Assembly: GCA_029945375.1 (NCBI GenBank)
Contig: JAQOTE010000019.1
Span: 1-64,000, forward strand
Direction: 5' to 3'
From: Agaricus subrufescens
Taxonomy: Eukaryota > Basidiomycota > Agaricomycetes > Agaricales > Agaricaceae
Length of the DNA stretch: 64,000 nt
Part shown: piece after piece, positions 31,447 to 60,815 of the stretch
How the letters are laid out: each line of letters starts with the position of its first letter
How positions within the stretch are numbered: position 1 is the first letter of the stretch
The notes under the pieces: generated by a model
What the model was told of the DNA's origin: nothing
Databases searched by the model: none
What the model saw: the letters and a program-made list of their open reading frames with translations, nothing else
Position numbers and translations under genes: made by a program

Positions 31447-31690
31447 CACTGGGACAACAAGTCGATTAAACACATGTTGAATTGATAACATATTGAAGGC
31501 AAATAATTTATTGTTCAAAAATATTTAAGAATTCTTATTAATGAGATATTTTTGTCCAGACATCAATATTGCATTAATATTAGTCAACACATATAGATAA
31601 CGTATTTTTGACTTATCAATAACTATATTAAATGAGTTTCAAATAATTATTTGATCGGAGTCCAAAAAAATATAATAATACGTTCGCACG
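31447..31690 (+). repeat. Left terminal inverted repeat
   Basis: Very AT-rich and aligned with the reverse complement of 60580-60815. Shared words include ACAAGTC, AAACAC, ATTGATAAC, CAAATAATTTA, CAAAAATATTTAA, GACTTATCA and TTTGATCGGAGT. These occur in the same order and at similar spacing, with an estimated identity of about three quarters. Confidence 0.85.
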
Positions 31691-31799
31691 TAAATCAAAG
31701 ACATATCGAAAAAAATTGATCTATGTGTGCATGATAAAACATCAGTCACATTTTGACATTATTGAATAGTTATTGAAGCAATTGTCCTTAAAGAGTTGA

Positions 31800-32100
31800 A
31801 TTGAATCACGGGTGATTCTCCCTAGGCTCACACAAGGTTGCTATAAATTACTTGTGAAATTGGATGTTGATGAGGGATTTGACTGAATGGGGGATCCAGT
31901 GGAGAGTCGACCAGATATTCGAGTAGCAAGGACTCAACTTAAGATTCAATTATGGGAATGATTTGGGAATCGGCAAGCGAGTTGACTGGAGAATCAGTGA
32001 GTAACTTGGTTGGCACACTCGCAAATCTGATTTGAGAGAGCATAGAAACATTGAGTGTTTGCGAGAGATCGGTGCGTTGTGATTCTCATAAGACGATGCA
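31800..32100. repeat. Left subterminal GAATC/GATTC repeat zone
   Basis: At least six GAATC or GATTC words occur in 300 bp, where about one or fewer is expected. They include a near-palindrome GAATCACggGTGATTC at 31803-31818. The 15-mer ATTTGGGAATCGGCA (31961-31975) recurs inverted in the right zone with one mismatch. CACTA elements carry such subterminal arrays as binding sites for their TnpA protein. Confidence 0.65.
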
Positions 32101-33795
32101 TCTACAAACGCTACAGGCATCAATATGATGATTCATCCCTTTGTAGCTTCCTTGGTTTACGACCCGGCACAAGCAGATTTAGAGCCGTTAAGCAATATAA
32201 TGAGAAGTTCGTTGTGCACCGACATTCCTATTGCCTCCGCGCTATTGAGATGCCTCGCCGCACGGCGCCCCCACCATAACTTGTGAAAACCCAGCTTCGT
32301 TGGACCCTCAGGTTCCTCTATACGCGATTGCTATTGGTTTGGGGCCTCGACTACATAGGTAAGATATACATGTATCCGATGCCAAGCGACATAACAACAA
32401 AGGGATTTTGGCAGGGATTTGGCAGTATTGGTAATCCAATGTTATTACTATTGCCACCGCCGCCATAACTGCCGCAACCAGTGCAGTTCAGTTCGTCTGT
32501 CGTTCAAATATCCCCTCCATAGCATGGGCAGCACCACAGTTTGAGCATTCGGCTTTAACGCTTCATGAGGCACCACCGGTATTGACGCGACGAAGGAGGG
32601 AAGGATTTCAAGATGTGACGGTAGTACCAGGGCCTGAAGAGCGGGATGAAATTTGAGTTTCAACCGTGAGAGGGGTCGAACCTCCGTAACCGAGGTCCCC
32701 TGATGTATTCAAGTTCTGAACCTTCAAATCCTGAAGGCAAGGGTCAGCCAGGGAAAGGGGCAAGGAGACCATACCGTACCTCATGACATATTCTACAAGT
32801 GTCAGGGCGTAAGAAAATTGCTTGAGAAAGGGTGATTTGGGCAAAGGGAAATTGGGCAGTAGGAGTATTTCGCTATCATAGGGGAACTTGTTATGAGAAA
32901 GAGTGGGATGGGTGAGGTGGGTGCATGTTGCTAACCAGAATTTACGTAGATTAGTATTGCTCACTGCAAGTAAGGTTGATTTACTTTCTTTTATCCCGTT
33001 AATTGTATCATTCACCCTCTCGTTTACCATCCCATGCTGCAATGGAATCTGTCAATGTCGGTATCGATGAATTCATTCATTTATTGCGACCTACTTCCAG
33101 TTTTTTGCCCGCTCACATGCGACCAAACAAAGTCACAACAAACCACAACCAGCCTTTGCATAGACGCGTTTAAACCTTCATCTCGCACCCTCATCGTTCG
33201 TCACTAAAATCATTCACCTTGCTAGTATTTTCTTCATTTGTCATTGAAACCTTCAACACGTATGTGTACACACCGAAGATCACAACGTATGGACCATGAA
33301 TATTTGTACATATTTCATCAAATCTAACGACTCACTTCGGATTTCAGGACGCGATAACGAGACAGAGTATGAGGCGGATATTTCAGAAGGCCCTTGCGGA
33401 GCAGAAGATGAGAAAGACGAGCTGCTTACCTCTGGTGGAGGATGGGTGGAAGGGCGTGTATCGATGAGTAGCTTGCTGACTGGAAGACGGGGCTATGGAG
33501 ATTTAGAAACTTCCGGTAGTGAGGGACTTCCATGGTTCGCATCGAGCAAAAGGAGCGAGGTTGGCAGCTATAAAACGAAAGCAACGAAGAATCAACATCG
33601 TTGTGGAAAGCGTCTACGTGAAGCCGATGGTTACGAGGCTGATAATGAAGCTGAAGAATTCTGTCAATGATGTCCGTCAGTCACCAGCGGCTAGTGGCCG
33701 CGACAAACCTCAAGGTAGATCAGAAGAATGCTGGCTTTATTCAATTGTAATGATTTACCATTATGGTTTGCGATGTGGTGGTCGCACCAAGGACT
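32101..33795. other. Element left arm, no clear gene
   Basis: Short frames on both strands (32608-33042 minus, 33296-33670 plus) are low-complexity and have no recognised domain. The plus frame 33296-33670 is acidic then basic and could be an exon, but no splice chain was found. Confidence 0.4.
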
Positions 33796-34482
33796 TCAAT
33801 TTGATTGGGTTTGTATTCCATTGTCATTGATTTTGATGAAGACCTCGTTGAGACGACAATGAAGGCACTTGTAAGCTAGCGAAGGTGGAGGGACAGTGGT
33901 GGGAGGTTCAAACGATTGCACAGACGGTGGCGTTGGGGGTGTCAATGCCAATATATCTGCAAGTTTGGCCAAAATTCTTGCACCAGCGGTATCATTTGCA
34001 CGAGAACCAAAAAACAGAGTGACTCGCAGAGCCGAGATTGAGGGCCTTAGACCCGATGATACTGTCTTAGCAGGGGGCGTATGAGGGAGAGAGGAAGGAT
34101 GAGCGGCAGTGTATTGAGATGTGATTGACGGTGGTGGCGAAGCCAACAAAAGCAAACCCAGGCGCAAAGATATTGAAGGTGAAGTTGATGCTGCCGGACT
34201 AGGCTCAGAATGCCAATGCCGAGTTGAATGTAATGGAGTTCCTTTTGCTTTCAAGGCATTTGGTGAATTGACGATACTTGCGGCGAGGCTCACCTGAACC
34301 ACGCAGAATGTCGGCATCACTATTGACTCCTCAATTCACTCTTCCAGGTCTCAGAACGGTCAATTCGCTACTCAAATCGTTGACAGAATCGAGTTGTATA
34401 CACTCACGAAAAAAGGAGACGCTGAACATGGCTATGATGCTGACGACGAAGACGATGGTGATTTCGACTGATTGCAGAGGAA
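33796..34482 (-). CDS. Possible cargo membrane protein (partial model)
   Basis: An exon beginning near 34482 encodes a strong membrane helix (VEITIVFVVSIIAMFSVSFF). It can be spliced in frame through RVNSDADILRGS to a frame rich in S and P that ends IKINDNGIQTQSN at 33796. Upstream, around 34620-34680, another helix (SHIFIGAFVIALLASVFALP) lies on the same strand and may belong to the same gene, but the joins tried by hand hit stops. Unknown function. The helix followed by a polar domain resembles the other cargo genes to its right. Confidence 0.35.
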
Positions 34483-35011: not shown

Positions 35012-36509
35012 TTAAGTGAACAAGCCCTCGGTCCTGTTGTAAAAATATAGATTGTTAGCTTGGTCTTCGAGCTCTATTCCAGATAAGCTTACCTGTTCAA
35101 GAGATCGGAATCAGATACCATGTATGCAACCCGGCTATAATAGGTCTTCAATTTAGCACATCTACGCAAGTCACGATGACCCTTTCTAATGAATCTCTGG
35201 GTGACTTCACAGAGCAAGCCTGACGTTTGCTCCAAATGTGTCTGCACATTACGTAGATAAGACATCCCTGGATCGCTCATGCTTGAGCCGGCAACTTGTC
35301 GCAAATGCCTCTCAACCGTAAAGAGATGATTTAAGTTGTTGAATTGCTGAGCGGCCTGCAACCAGCGGGGAAAACTAGCCTCGAAATCGACCTCCAATTT
35401 GGTCAAGTCAAGAGTAGCAGTCAGCAACTGGCGGCGATAAATACCGGCTGCCTGCCCAGTAAGTTGACTTGTATGCATCCCCTCGTGTAAGCGAGGCGGG
35501 AAAAGGACAGCGATACTATACGGTTGATCAATCGTAGAAGAGGCCTCATCCAAAACTACTTACTGGGTAACAACACATTCCATTTGCTCCTTGAGCAAAA
35601 GTGAATTCATGATACAAGAATTGAGGCTGCCCATCAATATCTCCGTAGCTGCAGCCATCTTATTCCTCGATGCATTTTTATCATCACCAAAGGCAAAGGA
35701 AAGTTCCAAAACAGATGCTTTCAATTTTTTGAAGATGAATAGGAGCTTGGCAGTGTTGCGATAGCGAAATGGTGTGCTCTCGTCAATGAGAGCATTATCG
35801 TAGTAATCTTCAGCTTCGTCATCGTCATCGTCGTCATCGTCATCATCGTTGTCGTCGTTGTCGTCATCGTTGTCGTCATCGTCATCATCGTTGTCGTCGT
35901 TGTCGTCGTCATCGTCGTCATCATCGTCGTTGTCATTGTCGCCGTCGCCACTACCATCATTATCATCACCGTCTTCGTCATCATTATCGTCGTCATTATC
36001 GTCGCTGCTGCCGTTGTACCCATAGTTGTTCTGCAAATCATCCCTTGCATTGTCCCCTGCACTGTCGTCGAGCGCAGCGCCACTGTTGTCATGTTGCCGG
36101 GAGTAGATGACATCGGCAGAGGGAGGAAACGGCATTACGGAGATAGAGCAATTGCACAAAAAGACGCCTAGCATGAAGAGGGCGAATCTATCCTGCGGCA
36201 GTAGAACGAGAGCATTACGATTACCAGCAGGCTGTTGAAATGTTAAGAATTGATCTTCACTCCGGGCGACATGTGTCAAACCTACAGATGATTCTCGAAG
36301 CCCAGACACTGATTCCGGATTATTCGGGAGATATGGTGATTCATGAAGTGGAAGCATAAAACCTCCGCCAGCGATGAAATGAAACCCTTCAACGTCTGCT
36401 GAAAAGAGTAAGAGACGTCAAAATCTAGATAATTAAACGAGACAAGTAAAACAATACTAAAGGGTCCCGGTATCATCAAAGAGGTGCGTTGCTCTGAATG
36501 GGAAGACAT
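35012..36509 (-). CDS. Cargo gene A: signal-anchor protein with acidic repeat and helical C-domain
   Basis: Spliced start MSSHSEQRTSLMIPGPFS (ATG 36507-36509), then DVEGFHFIAGGGFMLP. A membrane helix follows (RFALFMLGVFLCNCSISVM), then an extremely acidic D/N stretch of about 70 residues. The remaining domain is helical: TAKLLFIFKKLKASVLELSF, ILMGSLNSCIMNSLLLKEQ, YSIAVLFPP, HRDLRRCAKLKTYYSRV. A final exon after GTAAGC adds RTEGLFT to the TAA at 35012-35014. It is a full-length paralog of the gene at 58875-60100: block after block matches, and both use the same intron before a short RT-starting last exon. It is transcribed outward, toward the left tip of the element. The family is not one I recognise. 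Confidence 0.65.
35818..36005. repeat. Trinucleotide microsatellite (gtc/atc) inside cargo gene A
   Basis: Repeated gtcgtcatcgtc-type units which, read on the minus strand, encode runs of D and N. The paralog at 58875-60100 has only a short acidic stretch (GDEDNSDLGDNDHNQ) at the same place, so the array expanded in this copy. Confidence 0.9.
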
Positions 36510-38035: not shown

Positions 38036-40100
38036 CTAGGAACATTGAATAACATAGGGATACACTTGTACAAGGCGGTCCTTCAATCCACGTATATGGC
38101 CGTCTTGAACTGTTACGATCATCGCCTCACTCATAAGGCTTAGGTCGGCTTTGATCCTCTGGGCATCGACGCGATCAAGGAGAGTAAGGAGATCAAGCCC
38201 CGATACTGAACCTTTGAACCCAAAAGCAGCACCTATTCCCGTAGGAATGATACGGTGACGAAGTGAAGACTCAGTAGATGCAATCAGACGACGACGGACA
38301 TGCAATAAAGCCTCTTGCAGATAGTCCAAGTAGAGTTGCGCCTCTTTGATTTCCCCTCGAGACTGCGCTAACTGAGCTAGTCTGGGCTCAAAATCACAGG
38401 CAACATCTTGGACTCTTTGGTCGATGGTTGATCGTAAGAATAGCAGTTGACCACGGGAGAACGAAAGTAGTTGCTTTGCAGTGGAGATTCTGTCCATAAA
38501 ACAGTAAGCCGGCTAATCCACTGTGGCATTCGCATGGCCTACCTTTCGTTGACTTCGTCATTTACCTCACTGACCTGTTGAATCAGCTTTGAGGATCGGG
38601 AAGATGCATCTAGAACAACTTCCAAAATGTTTGAAATAAATTGTTTGTCCTCCAGGTCACTGTTCTGCACCGTTCCGACGAGCTCTCCTACTAACGACTC
38701 GAGTCTGCCCAACTCCAATGTAGAAGCCACAGTAGAAGTCAAAATTGGCGCAGTAGGTCGCGCAAGCGAATCGGTAACACGTGGGAATGATAGAGCGACT
38801 CCCATGACGGCTAAAACAACAAATAGGATAACCTGAAGGCATGGTACAAATGACTATGCAGGATACAGTGAGTTTGATATTCCTTCATAAGAAATTGAAC
38901 TGACCGGCAATCTGATGAGTGAACTGCGCGGACCCATTGGAAGAGTTGTCAAGGATAAAGTTCTGTTAGTTACTGCGAGATCCGTAAGAGTAGGCTCTAA
39001 AGCAAGTAGGATACTACTTGCACGAGGTGTCTCCGGCAACATCAATTATTTGATTATGTTCAGCTTCTGTATAACGATATTAATCAATGTCTACTCAACT
39101 TGAACCGGAACAGCACTTACCATAATGCCCTGGTAGAGTGCCAGCTGCGGCATGGGAATGATTCGAGTTGAACGCGTCAGCTGGTAGTACTTCGCTCCTG
39201 GGTGAAGACATGGGCCAGTCTTCCATGCGACGAGGACTAGTAGACAAAAGTGAAAATTCATTCCGCAAAGCGGAGTCTTCTTCAAAGGATGATGCATAAG
39301 AGACCGGTGAGTCCATGTCAAAATCTTCATCCTTGGGCTCGCCAAGTATCAAGGTATTGTCGGAGGGAATAATATGTAGGGTAGATAGAGCTGGTGCTTC
39401 GGCAGTGGATGTTCCTTGAAAAGGCTGTGATGGATTATCCCCTTCACTGAGCCTACCGGTGTTCAGAGACGTATTAACAGAAGGAATAAATGCCTCTGGC
39501 TCAGTAGTTCCTGCTTGAAATGTTTGTAGTGAAACCGTTTGGTAATCGAGGGTAAGAAAACCTTCACTTTCCAAAGTGAAATCCTCCTCAAAGGAGGACG
39601 CATTGTCTTCCTCGAGAGACGATACATGAGAGACTGGCGAGTTTACGCTGAGATCACCATCGCTGGTCCAGCCAGGGTTCATAAGATTGTCGGGGGAAGG
39701 AATGTATAGCGTAGATGAGTCGGGGACTTCGGCAGTTGAAACAATTTCTTGTAAGGAATGTGATGAAATACCGCTTTCAATGAACCCGCCAGTGTTCAAA
39801 GAAGCATTTACAGATGGAACGGGTACCTCTGCCGCTGAAGTTCCTGCTTGGAATGATTGTAGTGAGACCGTTTGGTAATCGAAGGTAACGAAACCATTCA
39901 CTGGGGTGGGATATTGATAATGAGATTGACAAAACATAAGAGAGCGAAAACTCACAAGCTGTTTTGAAAGCGTTATTGACTAGTTGCATGTCAACATTGT
40001 TGGGGGGCTCTACGGAGGCTTTTGTAGGCCTCGTTTGCAAAGCTAAGCGCTTGGCATGCCTCGTCCGGCGAGGTGTTAAGTAAGGAGTGAATCTCGGCAT
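38036..40100 (-). CDS. Cargo gene B: repeat-containing membrane protein with coiled-coil tail
   Basis: Starts MPRFTPYLTPRRTRHAKRLA (ATG 40098-40100). An intron joins FKTA to LNGFVTFDYQTVSLQ. The second exon holds two tandem copies of a unit of about 110 residues (GFVTFDYQTVSLQSFQAGT and GFLTLDYQTVSLQTFQAGT, each ending in an acidic SSFEED block). After further short exons comes a membrane helix (VILFVVLAVMGVAL). A helical, coiled-coil-like region follows (LGRLESLVGELVGTVQ, LQEALLHVRRRLIAS), ending VYPYVIQCS. The last blocks (DGHIRGLKDRLVQVYPYV) resemble those of cargo gene A (KGHRDLRRCAKLKTYYSRV), which suggests a distant relative. Middle exon joins are tentative. Function unknown. Confidence 0.55.
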
Positions 40101-40986: not shown

Positions 40987-43275
40987 TCATGGAAACATAT
41001 GAGGGACACAAGCAGCTCTACCAAAATAGTCAAAGAAAGTTTGGCAATAGAAATCAGCCACCAAAGACTCGACGCGTTCAACGCTGACCTTGGCCCACGG
41101 TCCCTTGTTGTTAACGTCAGTAGTGAACAGACCCTGAGGGGCATTCGGCCAGTCGACGATGACATTCCGAAGAGCTGATACATATGGGCGCCTCTCCTCC
41201 CAATTGCCAGAGGATAGACCACATGGGTGTTGAGGTAGATCGACAGTAAAAAGGCTTTCATGGACAAAGACGCTGCGGAGCTTCTTCTCTCGAAGAAGTG
41301 CGCCATCTGCGGTACGCCAATCATCGGCCAAAACACACCGATCAAGGTTAACTAATTCAATATTAAAATTGTGCTGCTGCACATCCCAGGCGACAAGTTG
41401 GCGGTCCCGTAGCTGAAATTTGATTTCTCCGTGGCTCCAGACAACTTGACCATTCCAACTTATAGTTTCCGCATCTCCCTTCTTTGGGGCTCTGATACAA
41501 AATATCTTTTTCGCAATTTCGCGAGATCTCGCGTTACGGCGGGCAGTACGGGAAACCTTTCCATGTCCCTCCGTTGGTGTGAAACGTTGGTGTGGGTGAG
41601 GACGGAGGAGCTCGATTTCTAGAATGATCTCGCGCAAGTAAGACCGCCATTGGTGGATGTGAGGCAACGGAACGGTACGCGGCTGGAAATCACCCATGTG
41701 ACTCAACCACCGGGTACGGATTAAAAGCCAGGCGAGGACGTTCTCCATACTTTTGTTTTCATCGCCACACAATATATAGGAACTCGGAAATGCATATCCT
41801 TTGAAAATGGAGCGCCAAGGGTGTTCGATAGGACTATGACGTATATCGACCTTTTTCAAAGCGTTTGCCCAGGAATCGGATGGCTTAGAGCTATACGCCG
41901 ATGTTGGTGGTTGAAACGAAGCTAGGTTAGTTGAGCTGTCCGTCACTTTCATGACCACTCGCTCGATTGCTTGCACCTTTGAATCTACACATAATCAGAC
42001 TTCAGGAAAGAAGGTCGTAAGAATACTCACATGGTTGGGCCCGCTGCCCATGTTTTCCCGTACTGTTCCTTTGAACACCGGGCGTTTCTTGAGAGCGAGC
42101 ATTTGTTTGAACATAAGAGGTAGAGGTAGAAGCTGTGCCTGATGGGACAAGTACTGATTGCACTGAATGAGGGAGCTGAGCCTGATCAGTCTCCTGAGTT
42201 AAATTAATTGAGTTTTCGTCGGCCATTGGGGTCATGTGTGCTTGACCCGGTTTCCATTTGTAGATTCCGAGAAACATGTTGCCAGACAAAGGACCAGCAT
42301 AAAATATCGGCGCTCCAGTCATGCGCCTAACGACAATACCTGCTTGAGCGGGTTCCTTCGGGTACGCCTGATCTATGATAGTTGCGTCGTCCGACACCTG
42401 AGATGGACGTCGAACAAGCCAGACAGGCACCCCCTTTTCATACATTTCATGAGCGACCTGGATACGATCAGTAACGCATCCCATCAGCTCATTGTTCGCC
42501 TCAGGGTAGCCTTCGTTGCTGGGGATCATACGATCAAATTTTGTGATCTTGTCTAAGAGTGCGCGAACCTCGAGGAAGCACCGTTGGGCCCATGTAACGT
42601 TTAACTTCATTGTAAAGTAGCTCGACGAGCCAAATTTGAGGGCGGCGACACAACCGCGCATCTGAGCAGCGGCTATGTGAAGTCTCCGATAGTCTGATCC
42701 ATTGCTACACTCGCAAGAGTCGACTTCGTTCATGAATTTGGTGCGGAGCTCGTAAAATTGCTCTGCTATGGTTGGGTTGAGACGTCCGTCATCGTCTCCG
42801 CCGTCTTCCGAATTAGGATTAAAGTGGCAACTGCCAATGTCCAACCATAGCTGTCGAAGGGGGTGAGAGTACAAGTGGCTGGGCTTGGGTTTACGAAGGA
42901 TATAGGCGAAGTGTTCTTGACCGTCGAAATACCACTGAGGCCATTGAGACCAGTCCTCTGCTCCCCAGCGTCCGTCCTCACAGATTGTGATTACTTGCTT
43001 TTCGAGATGTACTTGAGGTAGATAATCGGCATTAGGAGTGCTGATGACAAGTCTATTACTCTTGTTAGCCGGAGATTCGACCTCTTTAGTGTGTGCCGAT
43101 ATATATCTTGACTTGAGCTGGCCAATCAATCGTGCGTCCGTTACTTGAATCTGACCTGAGATATCTTAAGCGGTGTCGACCAGATTTCATGAACCCACTT
43201 GTACGTACTATCATTCGGTCGACAAAATGAAATGAAGATAGGATTTCCAGCACTGTCGAGTAATCTTGGTGCCAT
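40987..43275 (-). CDS. Large cargo protein of unknown family
   Basis: Spliced start MAPRLLDSAGNPIFISF (ATG 43273-43275). Intron joins in frame lead to LKSRYISAHTKEVE, a long exon (about 43110-42032), and after a GTGAGT intron to SKVQAIERVVMKV. The protein ends GRAACVPHMFP at 40987, about 740 residues in all. Visible features: a Trp/Asp-rich N-terminal region (WSQWPQWYFDGQEHFAYIL), a block EKGVPVWLVRRPSQVS, and a C-terminal region with LVADFYCQTFFDYFGRAACV. No catalytic motif or membrane helix was seen. The GVPVWLVRP-type block recalls a multi-copy protein family scattered through agaric genomes, but that is from memory and uncertain. Confidence 0.6.
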
Positions 43276-45652: not shown

Positions 45653-46692
45653 ATGAATAAGAGGGGCATCGAGCTTACGCATCAGGCCTCCTCGCACCAT
45701 TCTTTTTCCAAGATGTTCATGCATCTACGTCCAAACAATGCTTTAAGGCGAGAAGACACCGCCGCTGAAACCGTTTTTAATCAAGAGAGAGGGGGCCGCG
45801 ATTACAAGAAAAGCGGCAAGCCTCGTAATGTGAGCCCGTCCTCTTCTTGTTTTATCCCGTTCCTCACGCGATACAGTCCTCTTTCTCGCGAATGCTGAGA
45901 TTCTTTACCTGGGCGGTCGCAGTGGCTTGGGTCTCTTGGATCACTGCGGAAATTCTTAGATTGAAATGTGGAGAAAACCCTTCTTCAATTGGGTGCTCAG
46001 TCAAGATACAAACTTTCCATATCGGACACCATTCTCCCCTCCAGCTCATGTCCAGTCGCAATCGGCTTCATGATCCTCGACGTACTCCAAGAAATTTCGC
46101 TGCCGGTGGTGACGGTGCAATGGTGTTCAAGGCATTCACTTCATCGACTGCCCTCACTCCGATAGACTCCACCAATACGTTCTCCAAACGACCGTCGCCG
46201 GTTCCTCCATCCGCTATCCTCGATGATAATGTTGCTATTGGTCGTTGCTGGGAATTTGCGGGACAACAAGGACAAGTTGGCATCAAGCTGAATGAGAACG
46301 TCCACATTGGATCAGTCAGCCTTAACAATGTTCATCGAAGTTTAATCACCTCTACGTCAGCATGCAAGGCGCCTCGCGACTTTACCTTATGGGCACTCTA
46401 TGAAGGACCATCTCTAGAGGGATTGTCCGTTGTGTCGCGTCCTGCATCTTATTTCCTCCTCTCAAAGCCTTTCCCCCCCGGCATCTCAGCATCTTCTCAG
46501 TTCGTCCAGCTGGTGAACTCTTCGTATGATATCTCTTCCTTTAATACTCGCCAGACATTCGAAGTTCTGTCCTTCTTCAAAGGCACTCCCACCCCTCTCA
46601 TCAATTTCGTAATCTTAGAAATATCTAGTAATTGGGGTGCCCCTTCTACATGTGTCTATAGCGTAGGCATTCACGAAGAACTTGTGTTGTAG
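45653..46692 (+). CDS. Small SUN-domain protein (nuclear-envelope type)
   Basis: Exon 1 (45653-45829) encodes a basic N-terminus (MNKRGIELTH..KKSGKPRN). A 47-nt intron (45830-45876) joins in frame to SSFSRMLRFFTW. A membrane helix follows (TWAVAVAWVSWITAEIL), then about 80 linker residues. The SUN domain follows: GRCWEFAGQQGQVGIKLNEN, ISSVSL-type strand (HIGSVSLNNVHRSL), APRDFTLWALYEG, SSYDISSFNTRQTFEVLSF, and the C-terminal block ILEISSNWGAPSTCVYSVGI. SUN proteins sit in the inner nuclear membrane with the SUN domain in the lumen and bind KASH partners of the outer membrane. This one is short and lacks a long coiled coil. It also conserves a late cysteine (STCVY). Its place inside a transposon is unexpected. 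Confidence 0.8.
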
Positions 46693-49073: not shown

Positions 49074-50647
49074 ATGCGCGTCTTTGTGCCCATCTTACTA
49101 GGGCTTATGGCAACCCTTTGTCTCCATGGCAACTTCTCTGGGGCTCCCTTGTTCCCGTTCGGGAACTATATCTCAGTGAGTAACCCTCCATGTTAACATA
49201 CCTCCGGTAGTTATTTTTATTTTTATTTGTTTAATACAGGCTAACAAGGCTTTTGATAGTGTCGCTCCTTTGTTAAATACTTGTCGACTGGGCACTCACA
49301 GCTCCTTGGTGCCACACCCCAATATCGGTTAGTCATTTATCTATCTTTGATCATGGAGGTTCGTTTATTCATCACATTGTTTTCCCAACTAAACTGTTAT
49401 CTTTCAGCTTGATAGTTCCGCTACTCCTACATCTTTGCGAAATCCGAAGCATTCGATTGGGCGCTCAGGGGGTATGGGTAATTGCAGTAAATTGCAACCT
49501 TTGGACGACAGCATGGAGGTTTTGGAGGTATTTGTTCTTTTAACTCAAAGATTTCTCCTCCTCACATCAATAGGATATGGTCGCTCATTTAGTTGAAGCC
49601 CGATCTGGTTCATTTGTCGCTCAGTATAACCGCCAGAGTCAAGAAAAGGCTGATGCTATAGAAGCATCATTACGATGCGAGATCTATAGTTGTAGACAAA
49701 GCCTCACAGACCACACTGTTCTTCTGAATAAATGTATCGATTTCAACGTAAGTCTACTTCTTTAGTCGAGTGCATTGCGCTTATCCAGTCTTAGTTGTCT
49801 CATCAGCGGGCCCTGGAAAGCTACCGCACTCAAGTTGATGGAGAACTGGCTCTCATCAAAGACGACATACATAAACTTCGTAGCGAGCATGCGAAGTCTC
49901 AAGGCGAATGCTCAAGATGTTCAAAGGATATCGAGGCTTTAGAGGGCATAGTTGGCGGGATTCAAAGTGATTTACAATCCTTTACTGAACATACTCGCTC
50001 CTTTCAAGAGCGCATGCAGCTGCTCGGTGAACGGATACAACCTATTGAGGAGCGAATGTTTTCAGTTGACTCCCAGCAGGAGATTTCCATTTCTGGCTTG
50101 GAGGTAGTCGAGTCCTTGTCCAAAGACATAGCGCAGCTCTATCAATCATACGAGACTCTCAAGGTCCAATTGGACGCGTTTTCTCCTTCAACTGATGCAT
50201 ATTTCGTGGGCTCTAATAACTTGCGAAGCACCAGCCAGGATTTTGTGACATTAGCCAGTACGTAGCAAATACCTTGAGTATGCGAATTGATTCTGAAGTA
50301 GTGATGCAGCTGAAATTGATAACGCTATCATACGCGACCGACTGAAATGGAGCTTCAAGTTTCTTGTCCCGTCGGCAAAGTTTTGTGTTGCTGTATATCG
50401 AGGTGAGGTTCTACCGTCATTGTGTACCACCATTTGCTTAATATGACCAGCGTTGCGAAAGCGCGCCTCAAAAATATGTGTGTACCGTGTGGACATTTCA
50501 CAGCCCACTACTTTTACTATGTTAATATCCATTGCATCATCTTTCATTGTACTTGTCGCTGCAATTTCCTTTCGCAGCCGACTGTACTTCGGTGAGGACG
50601 TTCATCCTGAGGAACGAGCCCTTTTTTATGACCCCTATGCAATATGA
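49074..50647 (+). CDS. Coiled-coil protein with C-terminal membrane segment
   Basis: Start proposed at 49074: MRVFVPILLGLMATLCLHG looks like a signal peptide, and its exon (49074-49175) joins through GTGAGT to ANKAFDSVAPLLNTC (from 49240). The next exon carries a short S/G-rich stretch. The one after (VAHLVEARSGSFVAQYNRQS) and exon 49802-50258 form a coiled coil of about 200 residues (ALIKDDIHKLRSEHAKSQGE, FQERMQLLGERIQPIEERMF). A basic segment (ALRKRASKICVYRV) leads to a membrane helix (MLISIASSFIVLVAAISF) and a tail of 24 residues ending FYDPYAI. The join between the second and third exons is uncertain. If the signal peptide is real, the coil is lumenal or outside. If translation starts later, it would be cytosolic. 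Confidence 0.5.
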
Positions 50648-50944: not shown

Positions 50945-53900
50945 TGAGAACGTACGTCCAATCTTTTGATGCTTTCTACTGTTGGTGAACCTTTTTGTAG
51001 TGATAGCAGTGCACCAGAACGGCGCAAGGAGAGAGCCTTTGATCCTATGCGTCGATCGTCTGAGGCAGGATCAAATGATGCAAAGCTTGGAGAAAAACGT
51101 AAGCAAAGGGCCTTTCATGCTGCACGTCGATCTTGTGAGCCAAGGCCGAACGCGGGCAGTCATTCAGCCAGATCCACATATGACGAGGCCAATAATACTT
51201 CGAGTGGATTTGGTGGAAAAACATCTATAAATGGACCCGAGCCGCCAAGTGAAGATCATGGTCTGTTCCATCCATCCACTTTTCCCTACTATCCTTTACT
51301 GATTTTTCGAAGGTCTCAGCCTTTCCCAACGGCCTGAATTATTATTCCTTCCGGAATGTACCCCTGAAGCTTCGGTAAAGTGGGAAGACACCGAGACAGA
51401 GCTCGAGAGGGATGCCGAAAATATGTCTTTTGACAATTTCCACACTCCAACCACAAACGTTTCATTTTCGCGAGCCTCATCAATTCAATCTGGTCCCACC
51501 GTTACGCAATCGTGTGAAACACGATCACCCCTGGCACTCATCGTTCCTGTTGCATCTCCTTCGCCACGTCAGCTTAGTTCTCCTCCAGAATTTAGGTCGG
51601 ACGATGGGATTGACATAATGGATGAAGTTGAGGAATGCGATCGGATGGACATTGAAGAAGACTATAAGAAAGCCCAAAATATGACGATAGCAGAAGCTAA
51701 TGATGAGCGACCAAGTCCAGATGAATCACCTATCGCAAAGAGTATACATCTTTCATCAACTGTCCGTTGTGTGCCTCAGAAACGTGGTCGGGAAGACAGT
51801 TTGTGTCATGAGCAAGGACTGCCAAAGAAATCCCACCGCAAAACACGAGGCAGTGTTTCTGGTTCGCTCGACGCTGCACTCCCCGAGTCCAGTAGAACAA
51901 CAGGTTTGGCGTTATTGTGATCCGAGTCACATGTACTTATACTTGTCAAGGTGTTCCCCGGCTTGATTTGAGGGCTGTGTCAAAGCATCATGGAGGCATC
52001 TCAAAGCGGCCCCGTGCCGCTGTCAAAACATCTATCGAATACGATATTTCGTCTCAACCTGTACCACGTGATGAACGCCGGGAAATGATTCGCGCGGAAA
52101 TCGGTGGGGCTCAAAGTTTCTGGCATAATCCACCAACAAACGGAACAGAGGTCCGAGGAATCGTAAAAACAAAGGGAAAAGGTCTCCAGTCGCATGAACC
52201 GGAAAGGACGGCTAACAATACGCAAGATAAGATAGCGGTAGGGTCAAAAAGAAAAGCAGACGTGCCAATCGACGCGACCAAGGTGGGAAGTAAAGAGAGG
52301 GTTGCAGAAGAAGAGGAAAAGGATGAGAGTGAGAGGGGAAGTAGTGTATGGAAGTTTGCCGTCGACGACACAGGCGAGCGGGAAGGTCACACATTAGATG
52401 GGCCGCAAGAGACAACGGACAACGAGGAAGAGAAAATAGTGGAAGAAGGGACAAAAGCATTAGGAGTGAAGAAGAAAGCGGAGTTGCTAGTTGAGGTGGC
52501 GGAGGAAGGAATGACAGGAAAGGATCCAGAAGAAAGTATAGAGGGTGCTGGAGAAAACTTGAATCCGAAAGAAAGGAGAGGTAGCAAATGGAACTTTCCT
52601 ATCGACGATAGAGGTTTGATAATGGATGATGAGGTATCCGATGGAGAGGCTGATGTAGGGCATGCGGATCATGCAGACCATCACGCGGAGGTTAGAGCAG
52701 GAGATGGAATGGACCTCTTGACGATGGAATTTGCCAATGATAGGGCGGGGGAGTTGGTAGAGAGAGAAATGCCAGTTGGTTAGTTTTGTTCCTACATGAC
52801 TGTACATTGGTTCCTAATCTACACACTTACAAAGATACGCAAGTAGACAGAAACACAGGTACGAAGTTTTCAGTATTGTATTGCTATATCTTATAAGATT
52901 TAGAAACTACCGAAGAAAGCTTGAGACGTTTTAGGGCGCAGATTCGTCGTTATGAAGCATTTGAGCGCCAGGAATCCATTGTTGTGAGTGGTTCTGCTTT
53001 ACTTTTTTCTCTAAGGTATTCATACCTATTAGTGTCAGGATTGTGGCAAATGCAAATCTTGCGGCCAGCCACTGGAAGGTCGAACATTCGGAGACAATAA
53101 TGATACAGGCGATCAAACTACATCGCCTGCCGTCAGAATGTCGTCCAAGTCCAAGCAATCTCGGCATCGAGCCACCAAAAATTCCTTCACAGATGAACGC
53201 TTTGGTTCAGAAGACGGCTCAGAGGATACAGTAAAACAGAGCAACAAGGCATATAACAAGATATATACACCTAAACGACGCTCTGCTGATGATAATGAAT
53301 TCAAGGTTAGTAGCAGACCCTCTCTTCTTCGCTCTAGCTTAATATAGCCTAGGCTGAAATTCGAAGGGAGATTGCCTATTTGTTCAACACCGAAAATCCA
53401 GATATTCGTGTGGCCACCCCCCTGCAGGTTAGGCGTTTTACGAGCACCAACAAGGCGATAGACGGCCCACAATTAGATGACATATATTTCGATTTTGATG
53501 GTCCTTCCCCAGTCACACCTTGGAATATTCGCATCGTCCACTTACTTACCAAAAGATACGTTGCACAACCAGGCGTCATGCTCAAGGATGAAGTCAGAGT
53601 CAAGAAAGCCTTCACCCAACGTCTACGAAAGTTACATGTATCCTATCAACAATCTCTAAAAACATTATCACCCGACGAAATTACTGCTGGGGAGGCTAAA
53701 ACGCGTCTTGTTAATCAGAAAACACGACAGTACTATGTGAGCTATTTCATCATACCTCGTTAACTTTATAATCAATAGACGACACAGCAAAGGAACAGGC
53801 GTGAAAAGGTTGCTTTAACCTTGGCTACGAAAGGATCAACGATGGCCCGGCATGCGGAGTTATGGAAGACTATACCCCAGGAAGCGTGTAGTGAAGATGA

Positions 53901-54338
53901 GGAAATCACGTATGCTACTGGCCCACGGTTCGAAAAACGCACTCCGTTTTGGCGGAACCTAGATGTACAGGACTTCTTCACAGTCTGGGATCATTTGGAT
54001 ATTGCGCAGAGATATGGGCCTGATGGTAAACCCAAGGGCAAGGGCAGGTTCCCCCGTTATCGCCATCAACCAAATCCGCCCCGCAAGAATATCGATGCGC
54101 CTGTTGCTCGTGGACTCCCTCTCAATTTTTACGACGCACTATGGTACAGTACCCTCGATGAAATCGAAAAGGAGGCGGTGAATGCTCAACCTCCAGCCGA
54201 TTTAACGATTCCTAGAGGCATCCTTCGGTATGCATTATGTTCCTCTGATCTCCTAATTGTATATGCTGATTACACTACAGTTTTGCTCAAAGGCATGCCC
54301 ATATAAGGACTCGCGATGATCGTCCACTCCCAACATGA
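50945..54338 (+). CDS. TnpA-like accessory protein of the transposon
   Basis: A multi-exon gene of about 1000 residues, with every intron join tried keeping frame. It starts MRT (50945) and exon 2 has two related units (ERRKERAFDPMRRSSE and EKRKQRAFHAARRSCE). Acidic and basic disordered stretches follow, then a region with FWHNPPTNGTEVRGIV. After the intron near 52782 comes a helical stretch (ESLRRFRAQIRRYEAFERQE) and a cysteine cluster CGKCKSCG at about 53042. Then come helical blocks (AEIRREIAYLFNTENPDIRV, WNIRIVHLLTKRYVAQPG) and the conserved tail PDGKPKGKGRFPRYRH, LNFYDALWYSTL, RFAQRHAHIRTRDDRPLPT. CACTA elements encode a second protein that binds subterminal repeats. Position and cysteine/basic motifs suggest that role here. 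Its stop is 75 bp before the transposase ATG on the same strand. Confidence 0.6.
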
Positions 54339-54412
54339 ACCTCTTTGTTTTAATTAACCCCGTTTGGAGAACAATGAATATATATACATGTGCACACGAA
54401 AATACCTCTTTC

Positions 54413-57400
54413 ATGGCTCCTAATTTCTGTCGTTGTCGTCGGTGTGGCCCAGGTGGTCGCCGCCTTGGTACCACCGAGTTCCAAACACATCAACGTTGGG
54501 AAGAACTTGCCTGGGCTCCAAGCGAAAGTGACGTCGAGGAGCTTTTCTCACCTAATCCATCCACGCCTTCCGTAGAAGCTGGTCAACCGTCTAGGCAATA
54601 CAATCACTCCGTGCCATCAACGCGTCGTGCTGCCGCACAGCTATGGCTAGCCCAAGTCGATGCTCAGTTGCTGCAACGAAATGCATCTGTTATCAGAGGA
54701 CGACTACGATCTCATTCATTTAAGTTTGCTATCCCACCTGGGAGCCAGACTCACCTGCATCCTTTGGTTGATCCAACGATGCTGTCGCTCGATGAACGTA
54801 TGCAGCAGAACTATTTGGTTTTAAGCCATGAGCGGTGGTCGGAAGAACAACGAATTGCTGGTCATTCGCACCTGAAGGATTGCATTAGTGATGCGCCCTT
54901 ATCACAGGAACTTACAGTCATGTTAAACCGATTGTGTGACGATAATACCGAAATCTCCCGTATAAAAAAGTTGGAATGGGAAAGGCAATGCCGTATAGCG
55001 GCAGAGGACAACCAAGTGGATCCAGGTAAGAGTGTTTGCTCGTTGTGACTTTCCTAATTCACACCCCCGTACAGGCCCACATATGGAATCACCGTTTACC
55101 AGTATGGAACCTTGGGTAGCACTGTGGTATATTCTAGTGTTGTCCCTCCACTTGCTCTCCGGCATCTCTTTGAAAACTTGCACATTCTACCTCTCCGGTC
55201 TAAAACTCCAACCGCATGTTTTTGACACCGTACAAGGAGTAGAGACGCAGTGCCAGTCCCTGCCAGCCACCGTTGAAACCATTGTCAAGCGAACAAATAT
55301 TACTCCGAAATTCAAATCGTTCATCTGCTGCCCCAACTGTTTTTCACTTTATGACCGTCAAGCTGAAGCTCCCAAGGTTTGCACCTCAGCCGAAGACCCC
55401 GGAGGTCCCATATGCGGGGGAGCCTTATACAAAAACGGAATGGACAAGCCTGTCCGTCAGTATGTCATGCATGACTTGAAAGACTGGCTTGCCCGACTAT
55501 ATGCAAGACCCGGTATGGAAGACCATCTCGACAGGGATGTTTACGGCCCTGCTACGGAAATGAATGACATCTGGGATGGATCTGTTCTGAGGAGTTTCAC
55601 CGGCACGGATGGCAAATTATTCGTGCCCCGTGGGCGTAGGAGTGGGGAAGGGCGGTTGATTTTTAGCCTCAACATGGATTCTTTCAATCCCTTTGGAAAT
55701 ATGCAAAATGGCAAGCACGTCTCCATTGGCGCTATCTACATGACCTGCCTTAATCTCCCACGTGAAATGCAAAACAAGATGGAGAATATCTTTCTTGTTG
55801 GCGTTATACCCGGGCCTAACGAACCATCCCTCACTCAAATCAATCATATCACCAAACCCCTCGTTAATGTCCTATTGGAACTCTGGATCACTGGCGTATA
55901 TCTACGACGAACTCCTAATTACTCGGAAGGCAGAAAAATAAAGGCCGCTATTGTTCCCCTGGTTTCCGATCTCCTCGCTGCGAAGAAAATGGCTGCGTTT
56001 GCGAGTGCTACATCCAAAAATTTTTGCTCTCATTGTCATATAACGCTCGACAAGATAAACAATCTTGATCATAACAGTTGGAAGCCACGCACTTGGAATG
56101 TACACCTGACGAATGCCCATGCATGGAAGAATGCCTCGACAAGGGAAGAGCGGGACAGAATTTTTGCCGATTATGGAGTGCGATGGTCAGAATTATTACG
56201 ACTACCCTATTGGGACCCGACTTCATTCATTGTCATTGATTCCATGCATTGCTTCTACCTCGGGCTGTTCCACCGCCACGCTGTTCTAGTATGGGGCATG
56301 GATCCGACAAAAGATGACAGCGACAGTGTTGTTCACAAGTTGAAGGCTCCAAGCGAGGGAGCCGCGCAGGCAATGGCATCATTTCAAGCGAGCGATCTTT
56401 CGAAACTAGCTTGCTCATCATGGGATGCCCTCGCCTTCGTATGTGCCAACTTAGGTATCCCCTGCGATGGCACAAAGGAGGACCTTCTTCTGCGACTCAA
56501 GACAGTGAGCCTTTCTAATCTATCTCCGATGCAAGACTAAAACTCAATAACTCCAGCGAATCACCAACCGAGCTACGCTTACTTCTGTGAGTTTTCTATT
56601 AGGTGTCTGACCTTTAACTATTCCTCACTTTACAATCAAGAATGTGACAACGTCAAGTCGAAACGTCGCTCCTCTTCAAGCTATGGGAACACTTCTAGAG
56701 ATACCCTCAGGCAATGTTGATAATCCCGCAAAATTAACCTTATCAAAAGAGGAGGCCACCGACCTCTGGTACAATGCCACAAAGTCCAAGCTGAAAAGTC
56801 GCAAAAAGGGTGATCTTGCTGCTTTGCTACTTCATCAAGGGGTTGCTCCAAGTGAAATCGAAACTTTAAAGAAGAATGACCTATTCGAAAAGATCCAGGC
56901 TCTGGTAATTTAGTGAACCTTTACTTCTGCCATACTTACTGATTCATTTTTCCAGAGGAAGGAACAACGTATCATCGATATGTACGAGAATAGACTCCAA
57001 GCTGGCAAAACAGCCAAACCGTCCCGGCTAGCCCGTACATCATCTTCGGTGATCATCAGCCAAGGTCATAGTGATGTGAGAGCCACTATCCCAGCAGCCG
57101 TCGAACATAACCTCCTGGTGCATGGGCGAGTTGAGGACACATTTTCGGTCGTATGTCCAACTTCTTATCGAACAAATGACCCATGCCTGACAGAGCTTTC
57201 AGCCCCCCAGAACTTCAAGAGATATATCGGGGAACACTGAAAGATATGTCCTAGGAAAGACAGTGATTCCGAAAATTCGTGAAGATATGGGTCGGTTGAT
57301 CCTTCCTTCATGGGCACCAAAGGGCCCTGCCTATCCCGGTGAAGCAAAGGGGGGGAAACTTCATGCTGATCAATGGCGTTCCTTCTTCACCATCAACCTT

Positions 57401-58680
57401 CCGATAACCCTACTCAGATTGTGGAGCTGCGATTCTATCGAGAGCAAGAAAGGCCAGATGCTGCAGAATTTTTTCTATTTAGTCACTGCGGTGGAAGTTG
57501 CTTCACGCCGCACTATGACAGAGGAGCGTATCCGCCTTTATGAAGATCATATTTACAAGTATCTGGCAACATTGTTGCAGCTGTACCCGAATACCAAGAT
57601 AGTCCCTAATCAGCACAATGCTCTACATTTTGGAGAGTACCTCCGACGTTTTGGTCCTACACACGGATGGAGATGTTTTGCGTTTGAACGCTTCAATCAT
57701 CTACTCCAACAAACTCGCACCAACATGATCATTGGTTCGTGTTATCTTTTCGTGTCATAACATGGGTAACTTATACATGTCTCCAGGTAAAATGGAGGCG
57801 ACTATGTTCCACAAATTCTGCATGACCCAAAACCTTCGCTCTCTCTACAACTCGTGGCAGCTTCCTGAGAAGTTACATTCGCTTGTTGAAAAATTCTCCG
57901 CAACCTTTGATCACGATCTACGTGGAACTTTATTGAGTGAAGACTCAAACAATCACTCATCGGATCCCGATCTGCGTCGTACGAAGGAGGGATTGTTGTC
58001 TAGGGAAACGTATCAACTACTCATTTCCTGGGCACAAACGCATGACTCTCAAGTGTTCGAAAATATGTCTCGCAGGGTCTTGTTTCATCACGCCGTCTAC
58101 CGTGATGTCCTGTATAAAATCCACAGTCGATCTGCTCCAGACAGTCACGTTATCTTCACCCTTGATGGTGTTGTGGAAGAAAAACCTGGATACATTGAGT
58201 GTATATTTACTCACATCCGCAAGACAGCACACCGCAAACAAATTCAAGAGACATTTGCCGTCATATATCCCTACCAGATCGTGGCCTTACAAGAGCCCTA
58301 TCAGAACGTCTCCTTCCAGATGACTAAATTTTCTTCTGCTGCTGGGTTTCTTTTTCAAAAAGCAAAGTTGCCCCCTGTTCTTGTCCTCTTGAACCAGATA
58401 CATGGTCATTTTGGCTTTGCACGTACAGACTATGACGATGGGTCACACTCTCAGATATTTCACGGTCTTCCACTTCTCAAGGTACGTTGAAACGACAGGC
58501 ACTACGTTGCACGTGAGCTAATGCGAATCCATAGTGATCATTCGTCTATACACTGTTACTGTGCTTACCGATTGTCTGATATCTGTAATTCCTACATCCG
58601 AACCAATTTTAGTAGCCTACCCACTATCGTGCGGAAGTACAGACTAGCAAACGCCCGATGAACCCGGAGTTAACGAGTGA
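54413..58680 (+). CDS. Tnp2-type transposase (CACTA superfamily, Plavaka-like)
   Basis: This enzyme would cut and move the element by its CACTG ends. The start gives an N-terminal cysteine cluster (MAPNFCRCRRCGPGGRRLG). Exon 2 (from about 55074) has a second zinc-binding set (CCPNCFSLY, then two further cysteines to CGGALY). The DDE-type core follows: SLNMDSFNPFGN at about 55666 and FIVIDSMHCFYLGLFHRH at about 56224. Between them lies KNFCSHCHITLD. Further exons hold a SAP-like helix pair (KKGDLAALLLHQGVAPSEIE) and RDISGNTERYVLGK. The block GGKLHADQWRSFFTINLPIT comes next, then CFAFERFNHLLQQTRTN (DUF4218-like) and ATMFHKFCMTQNLRSLYNSW. A final GTACGT intron probably leads to QTPDEPGVNE and a TGA at 58678-58680; without it the frame closes at 58490. 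No internal stop or frameshift was seen, so it may be active. Confidence 0.83.
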
Positions 58681-58874
58681 CAAAGGCACCTTGAGATTTC
58701 TTTATATTCAATTATATATATGTATCAGCTCATTGGTTGCAAGATTGTCCCTGAGGAAACCTTGTGCTCGATTTTAAACACAGCCACAGTGGCAACCTTA
58801 TTCCTTTTTCACCCAAGATGGGTGTATAAATATATATATTCCCCACTAGCTGTCCATCGCCAATCAAAGATTTA

Positions 58875-60100
58875 ATGGTATTTCGACTTGGGCAACATTT
58901 ACCTCTCATGATACCTGGATCCTTCAGTATGATTTGACACATTTTCTTGATTATGATTTTGAAATACCTCTCAGGTGATATCAAAGGATTCCACTTCCTT
59001 TCGGGTGGGGGCTTCTCCTTTCCATCAAATTCCGCCAATGGCTTTGGTGTACTATGCGACTATCATACTTCTGGCAAGAATAACTCTTCACGAGGGTTGA
59101 TTTCCGAAGAAAAAAGTGAGGTATCACTGGGTGTAGTGGAGTTAGAACCCACATTCCAACAACCGGCCGTTAGTCTTCCTAAATATCTCCAGAGTTTTAC
59201 TAACTATTTCAGTCAGCTGCTGCTCATGGTTCTCTCATTGTACCTACACATGATAGGAATGCTTTTCTCGCATTAGGGGTATTCCTGTGCGCTAGCGTTG
59301 TTTCTCTAATTGGCGATGAAGACAATAGTGATCTTGGTGACAATGATCACAATCAATCTATTGACACTTTGTCGCACCATGACAATACCACAAAGTTGTT
59401 ATCGGTATTTGGAGAACTGAAAGTTTGTGTCACGGAGCTTTCATTCCATGTCAATGGCCATGAAGATTTTACATCGGAAAATAGAATGACTGGAATCATA
59501 GAAACGTTTATGGACCATATCAACTGTTGCATTGAAGGTTCACTGGCGCTGAAGGAGCAGACAGAAACCATTGACACATAGTGAGTAAAATCGGACCGAT
59601 TCTTCATCATTGACTAATCAAACTTACAGTATGTCGGTCCTTTATCCTCCTCTTGCGCGTCGTCATACGTGGACAATAGAACGCATTGGCATGGGTACTG
59701 GGGTCTTTTACAATAAATTTGTAATGGCTATCCGTGACTTAAGGAGGTTAGAAGCAACGTTTGAGGTTGACTCCCTTCGTTGGTTTCAAGTGGTACAAAG
59801 TTTACACCAGTTAAATCAACAGGTAATACTCAGAATGTCTATACAAGAACCACCGAATCTTCCACAAGGCCAACTCTATTTGGGGCGAGTGTCGGACCTG
59901 CTACAGGAGATTATTCGTAGATCTACTAGGGATGGATTGCGCAACTTGCAGAGGTGTAAAAGGTTGCAAATGTATTACAACCAAATTTTACATGTTACGC
60001 CCAATAGTAACATTTTAAATCGGTGAGTCTTATTATTATATTATCAGCGGCTCTAATCTTGTTTGTGTACAGGACCCAAGCTATGCCTAGATCTTGTTAG
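58875..60100 (+). CDS. Cargo gene C: outward-facing paralog of gene A
   Basis: Starts MVFRLGQHLPLMIPGSFS (ATG 58875). An intron leads to DIKGFHFLSGGGFSFP, matching gene A's DVEGFHFIAGGGFMLP. A signal-anchor helix follows (NAFLALGVFLCASVVSLI), then a short acidic linker and the helical domain (TTKLLSVFGELKVCVTELSF, IIETFMDHINCCIEGSLALK, YSMSVLYPP). The end block is DGLRNLQRCKRLQMYYNQIL. The terminal intron (GTGAGT after ILN) yields a last exon RTQAMPRSC ending at the TAG 60098-60100. It points toward the right tip of the element, as gene A points toward the left tip. It lies just downstream of the transposase. Family and function unknown. Confidence 0.68.
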
Positions 60101-60194
60101 ATGCCCCTGTTTATACGAGGCATATCTAGCGCATTGATACAGCTCTATGTCCAGTAAGATTGCTCGAGGAGTTTGTACTATTCTACAGTGCTAC

Positions 60195-60490
60195 TAGTCG
60201 AATCATCAATCAATTTGCCCATTAGCTAATTGCCCAATTGAAGTCAATTCTTTCAATCTCCACTCGAACATCCATTTTTCTGCCGAATCCCAAATTGATT
60301 CCTTAGTCGACACCAGTGAAATCATATGTCGACAATTCAATCCTACCAGCACATTCGCTTTAACATTGATTCAACAATGTCACGCCTCGCTGAATCAATC
60401 TTCCTTAACCAATTCAGAAATTAAGCTCAAGGTGAATCACCAATCAAATTGTCAGTTGACAATACGATTCTACATGTAGAATCTCTTTAA
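60195..60490. repeat. Right subterminal GAATC/GATTC repeat zone
   Basis: At least eight GAATC or GATTC words in 300 bp. Includes GGTGAATCACC at 60431-60441, the inverse 15-mer TGCCGAATCCCAAAT at 60281-60295, and an 18-bp perfect palindrome at 60466-60483. Confidence 0.65.
60466..60483. repeat. 18-bp perfect palindrome in the right subterminal zone
   Basis: GATTCTACATGTAGAATC reads the same on both strands. Each arm contains the GATTC word that recurs through the subterminal zones, so it may be a paired binding site. Confidence 0.8.
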
Positions 60491-60579
60491 TATTTATAGA
60501 ATAAAGTCATGATGTAACCCCCGTATTATTATAAACATATACAGTAACCCATTTTAATACGTCATCTATTTTCGGCTAA

Positions 60580-60815
60580 ATATATCATTTTAATATTTGA
60601 ACTCCGATCAAATATGTCTTTAATAGTTATTTGATATACTTACTGATAAGTCAAATATAAATTATTTATATGTGCTGACCAATATTGATCCAATATTGAT
60701 GACTAGATAAAAATATCTTATCAATATATAACTTTAAATATTTTTGCCAAGTAAATTATTTGGCTTCAATAAGTTATCAATGTGATACGTGTTTCATTGA
60801 CTTGTCAGCGCAGTG
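60580..60815 (-). repeat. Right terminal inverted repeat
   Basis: Inverted partner of the left repeat. Read on the minus strand from 60815 it starts CACTGCGCTGACAAGTC and continues through the same ordered words to the TTTGATCGGAGTT block near 60600. Confidence 0.85.

Follow-up and report, generated by a model that had tools for sequence, protein, structure and literature searches.

Positions 31447-60815 of the window, the 64,000-nucleotide stretch of Agaricus subrufescens contig JAQOTE010000019.1 analysed here, hold what appears to be a complete giant transposon, a DNA element of the EnSpm/CACTA type (CMCT clade), 29,369 bp long and with termini CACTG..CAGTG. Elements of this kind move as whole units. 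Beside a Tnp2-type transposase, the window element carries further genes that look like the conserved core module of a transposon lineage rather than passenger cargo. We consider it very probable that this is a giant EnSpm/CACTA element that moves whole and takes a conserved module with it; that degree of confidence does not extend to the tethering step discussed below. The genome searched is the 44.65-Mb assembly in 44 contigs, in which the window is C19:1-64000 and other contigs are cited in the same way.

The left end reads CACTGGGACAACAAGTC from 31447, and the right end reads ...GACTTGTCAGCGCAGTG, finishing at 60815. When the window is compared with itself, 31441-31778 aligns with the reverse complement of 60485-60821 over 339 columns at 73.5% identity (E = 4e-50), and both flanks carry an exact 4-bp target-site duplication, CATA. 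The match scores 194 bits, whereas the best of 500 shuffles in 2-base blocks reached no more than 33.7 bits, which excludes a chance match of AT-rich sequence. The first-pass annotation had proposed inverted repeats starting with CACTG as the borders and had called for aligning the left end with the reverse-complemented right end. That alignment confirms the borders, with exact ends, and removes the chance match that the annotation had named as an outcome that would overturn it. The duplication CATA had gone unmentioned in that annotation.

Relatives of the element lie at other sites in the genome, with homology reaching the ends, as emerged from the search for copies with the same ends and content that had been suggested at the outset. 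The left 254 bases of the window element have 17 matches in their own genome, most of which pair as element ends. An element of 26.9 kb at C2:743-770 kb has different flanks, with TATA on both sides; another of 32.1 kb, at C2:877571-909705, is 83-87% identical to the window element in the two longest blocks and less so elsewhere, with segments near the ends inverted between the two. The ends of a second lineage, which is more distant, read differently (about CACTGCGTGNGGGTTACC). One end of this lineage, used as a query, gave 43 genome matches, from which four giants (Table 1) and small elements of about 500-540 bp were paired; the body of the C9 giant was read at length, and the other three are known by their ends and gene matches. 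Besides the window copy, there are five giants (26.9-36.7 kb) elsewhere in the genome that each have an exact 4-bp duplication.

The length of the duplication is nearly invariant. At the first 13 two-ended loci, left and right flanks are equal at 4 bp in 13 out of 13 cases and at 3 or 5 bp in 0 out of 13; among mispaired flanks, taken as a control, 6 out of 156 are equal at 4 bp. Three more two-ended small loci, two with a duplication (TAGG and TATA) and one without, bring the total to 15 of 16 (6/6 giants and 9/10 small elements), and the sole miss, the small element C5:2551372 (TACC/TACT), has a mutated right end. The count excludes the one-ended small loci L045, L058, L061, and L062, the redundant copy L052, and C2:877571-909705, which has TATA on the left, TATG on the right, and a 3.45-kb repeat abutting its right end. 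This repeat (about 3.45 kb, C2:909705-913153) starts within a base of the element's right end and has 99% identical copies at C9:965372-968821 and C6:1244291-1247740.

One copy can be compared with a paralogous site that is empty. C1 from 465517 resembles the C9 giant's right flank, the similarity beginning exactly at the element border, and the joined flanks with a single CTTT align to C1:465200-465876 with 640 of 704 columns identical. Since that region of C1 is without the 27,951-bp element, the C9 giant was inserted as one piece. The earlier proposal that the whole span moves as a unit thus stands for the kind, on the duplications, and for the C9 sister copy; for the window copy we infer it. 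At another site, on C3 from 3906838, a 682-bp piece in other flanking sequence matches the window element's right end at 99.85% identity, which indicates recent activity of this element family. Two similar places on C6 (2232360-2244137 and 2332900-2344781) hold several second-lineage ends, with a SUN-like match just outside; these are possibly nested or composite elements.

The assembly itself contains duplicated blocks, and the copies could on that ground be read as segmental duplications or assembly copies whose CACTA ends arose by chance. C11:226178-263999 is 100% identical to window positions 26179-64000, flanks included, and C1:1465222-1499999 pairs with C2:740221-774999, where the C2:743k element has a 99.94% identical block on C1. 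These long doubles (99.94-100% identical) are either near-identical haplotypes or redundant contigs; the C19/C11 pair is one insertion assembled twice, or two identical alleles, and is counted once. The 32-kb element occurs three times (C1:1330572-1366203, C2:874000-909705, and C2:4435610-4471241) with a common left flank of at least 3.65 kb at about 100% identity and three different right flanks, each starting from the element's right end; the two other than C2:877k begin with TATA. Any of three origins would account for the three-copy pattern: a duplication with its border at the transposon end, transposition of an aberrant kind, or an assembly misjoin across a long repeat. Exact 4-bp duplications at different sites and the empty site on C1 speak against duplication with chance ends, which the empty site refutes for the C9 copy, and as a general account we find it hardly credible.

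The first-pass annotation was right to place a Tnp2-type transposase inside the element: the modelled frame matches PF02992 at E = 5.6e-12 (45.7 bits, cut-off 28.6). The CMCT clade is described as having CA..TG ends, duplications of 2-5 bp, and a DDE transposase with C(2)C (PMC12730594). This motif, and an H(3-4)H pair, are expected between the second D and the E. When the window transposase is aligned with 11 database relatives, the first D (D383) is found in 12/12 rows, the second (D480) in 11/12, and C499xxC502 in 12/12, while E973, the E of FERFN, is present in all 10 aligned rows (two have gaps). H573 and H583, ten apart, occur in 12/12 rows, and no H(3-4)H pair is conserved throughout. 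The termini, CACTG..CAGTG in both lineages, fit the CAC..GTG of the CMCT clade. Ends, transposase, and 4-bp duplications together uphold the original call of a giant CACTA-type cut-and-paste element. EnSpm/CACTA elements have arrays of short subterminal repeats that are bound by TnpA; the end 334-336 bp here contain only short repeats of two or three copies. The label "TnpA-like" given earlier to the gene upstream of the transposase was not verified, that gene having no Pfam match above the cut-off. Named relatives of the transposase are also found in Candolleomyces, Phlebia, Panaeolus, Pleurotus, Grifola, others, and one rust (Phakopsora). Its profile gave no convincing match in PDB.

Two other affiliations were not borne out. 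The earlier description "Plavaka-like" finds no support: PF18759 scores 17.3 bits, below its cut-off of 26.3, and both termini and duplication length differ from those described for Plavaka A (TGT..ACA, 2 bp) and Plavaka B (CATCA..TGATG, 2-3 bp) (PMC12730594). The element is not a Starship, either; the Pfam scan of window open reading frames (ORFs) and gene models, which left some small ORFs outside, gave no match to the DUF3435 tyrosine recombinase.

Table 1. Features of the window element (window positions), giants of the second lineage, and transposase loci with the full gene set (dN/dS, ratio of nonsynonymous to synonymous divergence; aa, amino acids)
Feature	Position	Strand	Remarks
Left target-site duplication CATA	31443..31446		Flank comparison
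Left terminal inverted repeat, start CACTG	31447..31778	+	Self-comparison, shuffle control
ORFs conserved with C2:743k element	35092..36417	-	Block 35092-35553: 69% protein identity, dN/dS 0.14; no Pfam family
238-aa gene, predicted	38036..38805	-	2 exons; dN/dS 0.14-0.23
Core protein of about 708 aa ("700-aa")	40987..43275	-	No Pfam family, no PDB relative
WD40 beta-propeller protein, core	43977..45107	-	C-terminal exons uncertain; second model round extends it and fuses it into next gene
SUN-domain protein, core	45713..46692	+	C-terminal SUN domain PF07738; frame ends 46692; first exon modelled
g47, core gene of about 122 aa	47083..47608	-	No Pfam family
g48, core gene of 257-269 aa	47749..48711	+	No Pfam family
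Coiled-coil gene	49577..50446	+	Placed in the core on position and type alone; model weak (score 12)
Fast-evolving ORFs, conserved in close elements	51303..52783	+	Block 51303-51917: dN/dS 0.18 and 0.38; no Pfam family
Core gene directly upstream of transposase ("331-aa")	53138..54338	+	349 or 331 aa by model; dN/dS 0.05-0.12; no Pfam above cut-off
Tnp2-type DDE transposase	54374..58490	+	7 exons, open frame, 1222 aa (first model round) or 1201 aa (second); PF02992
ORFs by right end	59204..60023	+	At most 85% protein identity to C2:877k element; no Pfam family
Right terminal inverted repeat, end CAGTG	60485..60815	-	Self-comparison, shuffle control
Right target-site duplication CATA	60816..60819		Flank comparison
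Second-lineage giant	C9:2536835-2564785		27,951 bp; duplication CTTT
Second-lineage giant	C5:33843-62812		28,970 bp; duplication TATA
Second-lineage giant	C2:989398-1026125		36,728 bp; duplication AATC
Second-lineage giant	C11:1697683-1729131		31,449 bp; duplication AATA
Full-set loci (12)	window, C2:743k, C2:877k, C9:57k, C2:1155k, C1:920k, C5:2846k, C9:2541k, C5:40k, C2:995k, C11:1702k, C4:2005k		C4:2005k decayed

The first-pass annotation had also reported about 20 kb of other genes beside the transposase, and this is correct. It had treated them as cargo, in the sense used for Starships, and here the comparison between lineages leads elsewhere. The 700-aa, WD40, SUN, g47, g48, coiled-coil, and 331-aa genes stand in the same order and on the same strands in the window and C9 elements (six recognised by sequence; for the coiled coil, only position and type agree), at protein identities in tblastn of mostly 30-50%. 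Comparison of 17 coding blocks gives dN/dS values of 0.05-0.38 with C2:743k and 0.04-0.38 with C2:877k; in one aligned block (g48, C2:743k) the relative has a stop. Transposase matches at 39% identity or more were grouped into at least 16 loci (38 of 71 candidates scored), after redundant blocks had been merged by hand (C19 with C11; C2:743k with C1; C2:877k with C1 and C2:4439k); five transposase loci at 37% (C7:2039k, two on C32, C11:2149k, and C11:2160k) fall outside this count. Twelve of the 16 also carry the 700-aa, SUN, WD40, and 331-aa genes within 39 kb. Three loci, C1:955k, C5:2873k, and C29, have equal scores, perhaps as recent copies, perhaps through redundancy of the assembly; they are counted as three, and counted as one they give 11 of 14. 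Because gene order persists at 30-50% protein identity, the genes co-occur, and selection is purifying, the extra genes look like a core module.

It could still be argued that a CACTA transposon picked up accessory genes of its host and now carries them along to the host's benefit, as in Starships. There are, after all, some 20 kb of genes next to the transposase, with a host-type domain (SUN) among them; the end regions vary between copies; and 700-aa homologues with no transposase match, such as that at C7:584k (50%), might be host genes. Such a carrier would not be expected to keep one gene order in so diverged a relative or the whole set at 12 of 16 loci, and the scanned ORFs and models include no metabolic, resistance, or effector-type family. 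We therefore regard this explanation as very unlikely and retain that of a core module.

The module and the transposase do not have entirely the same history. The transposase follows the 331-aa gene in the window element and precedes the 700-aa gene in the C9 element. Relative to C2:877k, synonymous divergence is 0.21-0.38 for most of the module and 0.36-0.60 for the 331-aa gene, and it reaches 0.74-0.90 for the transposase and 1.36 for the ORF at 35 kb, which indicates that the transposase end and the left end have a history other than the module's. The elements thus appear to recombine or swap parts; captain swapping, which is comparable, has been discussed in Starships (PMC12134995). A more radical interpretation is that the module is a separate selfish unit, or the remnant of one, joined repeatedly to Tnp2 transposases. 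The opposite placement of the transposase, its unequal divergence, and the module genes found with no transposase match nearby all agree with it. It fits less well with the presence of all marker genes at 12 of 16 transposase loci, and with the CACTG ends and 4-bp duplications of both lineages; we think it unlikely and prefer a module that belongs to the transposon lineage.

That association is probably older than this genome. Leucocoprinus birnbaumii has a related transposase (NP233_g8865, 49%) and a fused WD40 and 700-aa model (NP233_g8867, 40%), which probably lie on one contig (both records have 20,984 bases), and in Grifola frondosa WD40 repeats and a related transposase are fused in a single gene model. 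These two cases suggest that transposase and module came together before the present genome.

Several observations weigh against a complete, mobile element with a faithful module. The C19 and C11 copies are the same insertion with identical flanks and yield a single count, and the assembly provides no empty site for the window insertion: C19 and C11 are the only places with its left flank, and the element is present in each. Four of the 16 transposase loci are without part of the gene set: C29 and C18 have three of five genes, C26 (at a contig end) two, and C5:3200k the transposase only. Conversely, SUN, WD40, and 700-aa genes occur with no nearby transposase match at C8:31-37k and C35:48-57k, SUN and WD40 at C10:2178-2182k, and the 700-aa gene alone at C1:50k, C4:3576k, C10:36k, and C7:567-586k. 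These places may be elements with other transposases, contig-end cuts, decayed copies, or host genes; otherwise the module is not strictly tied to the transposase. The two rounds of gene modelling disagree in several exons, the models being built from sequence only. The SUN protein has three matches in the protein database, none from a named organism, and any function proposed for the module is a weak guess, drawn from one domain and from a hydrophobic segment whose score in the window protein is borderline.

Gene models were derived from a comparison of the window element with its relatives at C2:743k and C2:877k. The SUN domain of the window protein matches PF07738 at E = 5.2e-18, that of the C9 element at 3.8e-11, and SUN2 in PDB is matched at E = 2.6e-10; one hydrophobic segment precedes the domain, with a Kyte-Doolittle score of 1.57 in the window (borderline) and 2.08 in the C9 ORF (clear). 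The second model round splices out the last residues of this protein, and that version was set aside. SUN-like matches at C7:814195-814674 and C7:1593713-1594192 (29-31% identity, in 596-aa frames) are candidates for the host's own SUN gene. For the 700-aa protein there are homologues in L. birnbaumii and Macrolepiota fuliginosa (35-45% identity); its family profile has no match in PDB, and six fungal homologues, out of nine family members, have none in Pfam. A search of NCBIfam gave no match. The ORF at 35563-36417 (minus strand), partly conserved in C2:743k, has a very acidic low-complexity stretch with runs of D and N. The piece holding the ORFs at 59204-60023 is inverted in the C2:877k element and lies at the opposite end. 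Outside the element, window positions 22369-24155, 26764-28514, and 30037-30208 hold diverged direct repeats (73% identity over 1.8 kb) and a shorter inverted relative adjoining the element's left flank; perhaps these are a tandem host gene family.

A mechanism can be proposed from these features. The Tnp2-type DDE transposase would cut at the CACTG ends, and the whole 29-kb segment would then be inserted at a new site with 4 bp of target copied. Small elements (233-538 bp) with the same end types and 4-bp duplications would be moved in trans, and the conserved module (SUN, WD40, 700-aa, coiled coil, 331-aa, and two small genes) would travel with the transposon lineage. As a rule, SUN proteins cross the inner nuclear membrane. 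A mobile element that maintains a SUN gene under selection plausibly exploits the nuclear envelope to be tethered, repaired, or transmitted. As a last step, and this is a tentative guess, the module might tether the element at the nuclear envelope. On the specific form of this idea, in which the SUN protein anchors the element to the inner nuclear membrane with its WD40, coiled-coil, and new partners and so steers transposition, repair, or passage between the nuclei of a dikaryon, we are equally doubtful. SUN proteins in general also anchor telomeres and move nuclei, and the agaric host is probably dikaryotic, so that the SUN/WD40 module might instead influence meiosis, or how nuclei move in the dikaryon, to the advantage of nuclei that bear the element, with no part in transposition. 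No KASH partner, motor, or killer gene turned up, no search having been aimed at them, and we rate this role as distinctly improbable, below tethering.

Exact ends, duplications, and one empty site show that Tnp2-type elements 27-37 kb long have been mobile as whole units, so the tyrosine-recombinase Starships are not the sole giants of fungi. More unusual is what stands in place of changing cargo: a module that is old and under selection and includes a protein of the nuclear-envelope type. Why transposons retain genes other than the transposase becomes directly testable. Were the anchoring proposal true, there would be a class of eukaryotic giant transposons with nuclear-envelope apparatus, mobile elements equipped with some LINC-like machinery of their own. 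CACTG ends, a 4-bp duplication, and the combination of SUN, WD40, and 700-aa genes are marks by which to search other fungi.

The comparison with known systems draws on titles, abstract openings, and passages, with few subscription journals covered; among the matches listed there, we recognised no SUN-encoding transposon and no giant EnSpm in a basidiomycete. The closest kin found in print are the giant EnSpm/CACTA elements of algae: those of Chondrus crispus are 16-20 kb with 4-5 ORFs (PMC6431247), and those of Ectocarpus reach 15.2 kb (PMC12477816). They have in common with ours the EnSpm type, large size, and several extra genes; ours differ, as far as the algal elements can be judged by description only, in their length of 26.9-36.7 kb, fungal host, 4-bp duplications, and SUN/WD40 module. 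The first-pass annotation's "little-described" accordingly has to be qualified, as giant multi-ORF EnSpm elements have already been published from red algae (PMC6431247) and from Ectocarpus (PMC12477816).

Fungal EnSpm families are described with CAC..GTG ends and 3-bp duplications, and some CMCT elements carry an extra gene, TET/JBP (PMC12730594). CA..TG ends, a duplication within 2-5 bp, and a DDE transposase with C(2)C are shared; the 4-bp duplication (15/16 loci, against 0/13 at 3 bp) departs from the 3 bp of fungal EnSpm and is still inside the CMCT range. No TET/JBP gene was matched among the proteins scanned here.

Starships are tyrosine-recombinase giants (PMC12134995), and the initial view that they belong mainly to Ascomycota has to be qualified by the eight described in the basidiomycete Tremella fuciformis (PMC13066641). 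Like the present elements, they are giant, fungal, and rich in genes, with a mobilising gene whose history is unlike that of the rest. By the accounts available, the present elements differ in having a Tnp2 DDE transposase, long inverted repeats, a fixed 4-bp duplication, and a conserved core (the ends vary) instead of variable cargo. KDZ elements are likewise giant cut-and-paste transposons with accessory genes, known from a 31.7-kb active element in Chlamydomonas and with accessory genes in fungi (PMC12477816); here, however, the transposase is PF02992 Tnp2, and the duplication is 4 bp as opposed to the 8 bp described for Zisupton (PMC12730594). In the literature covered, then, it is the 4-bp duplication together with the SUN/WD40 module that sets the element apart from known giant EnSpm elements.

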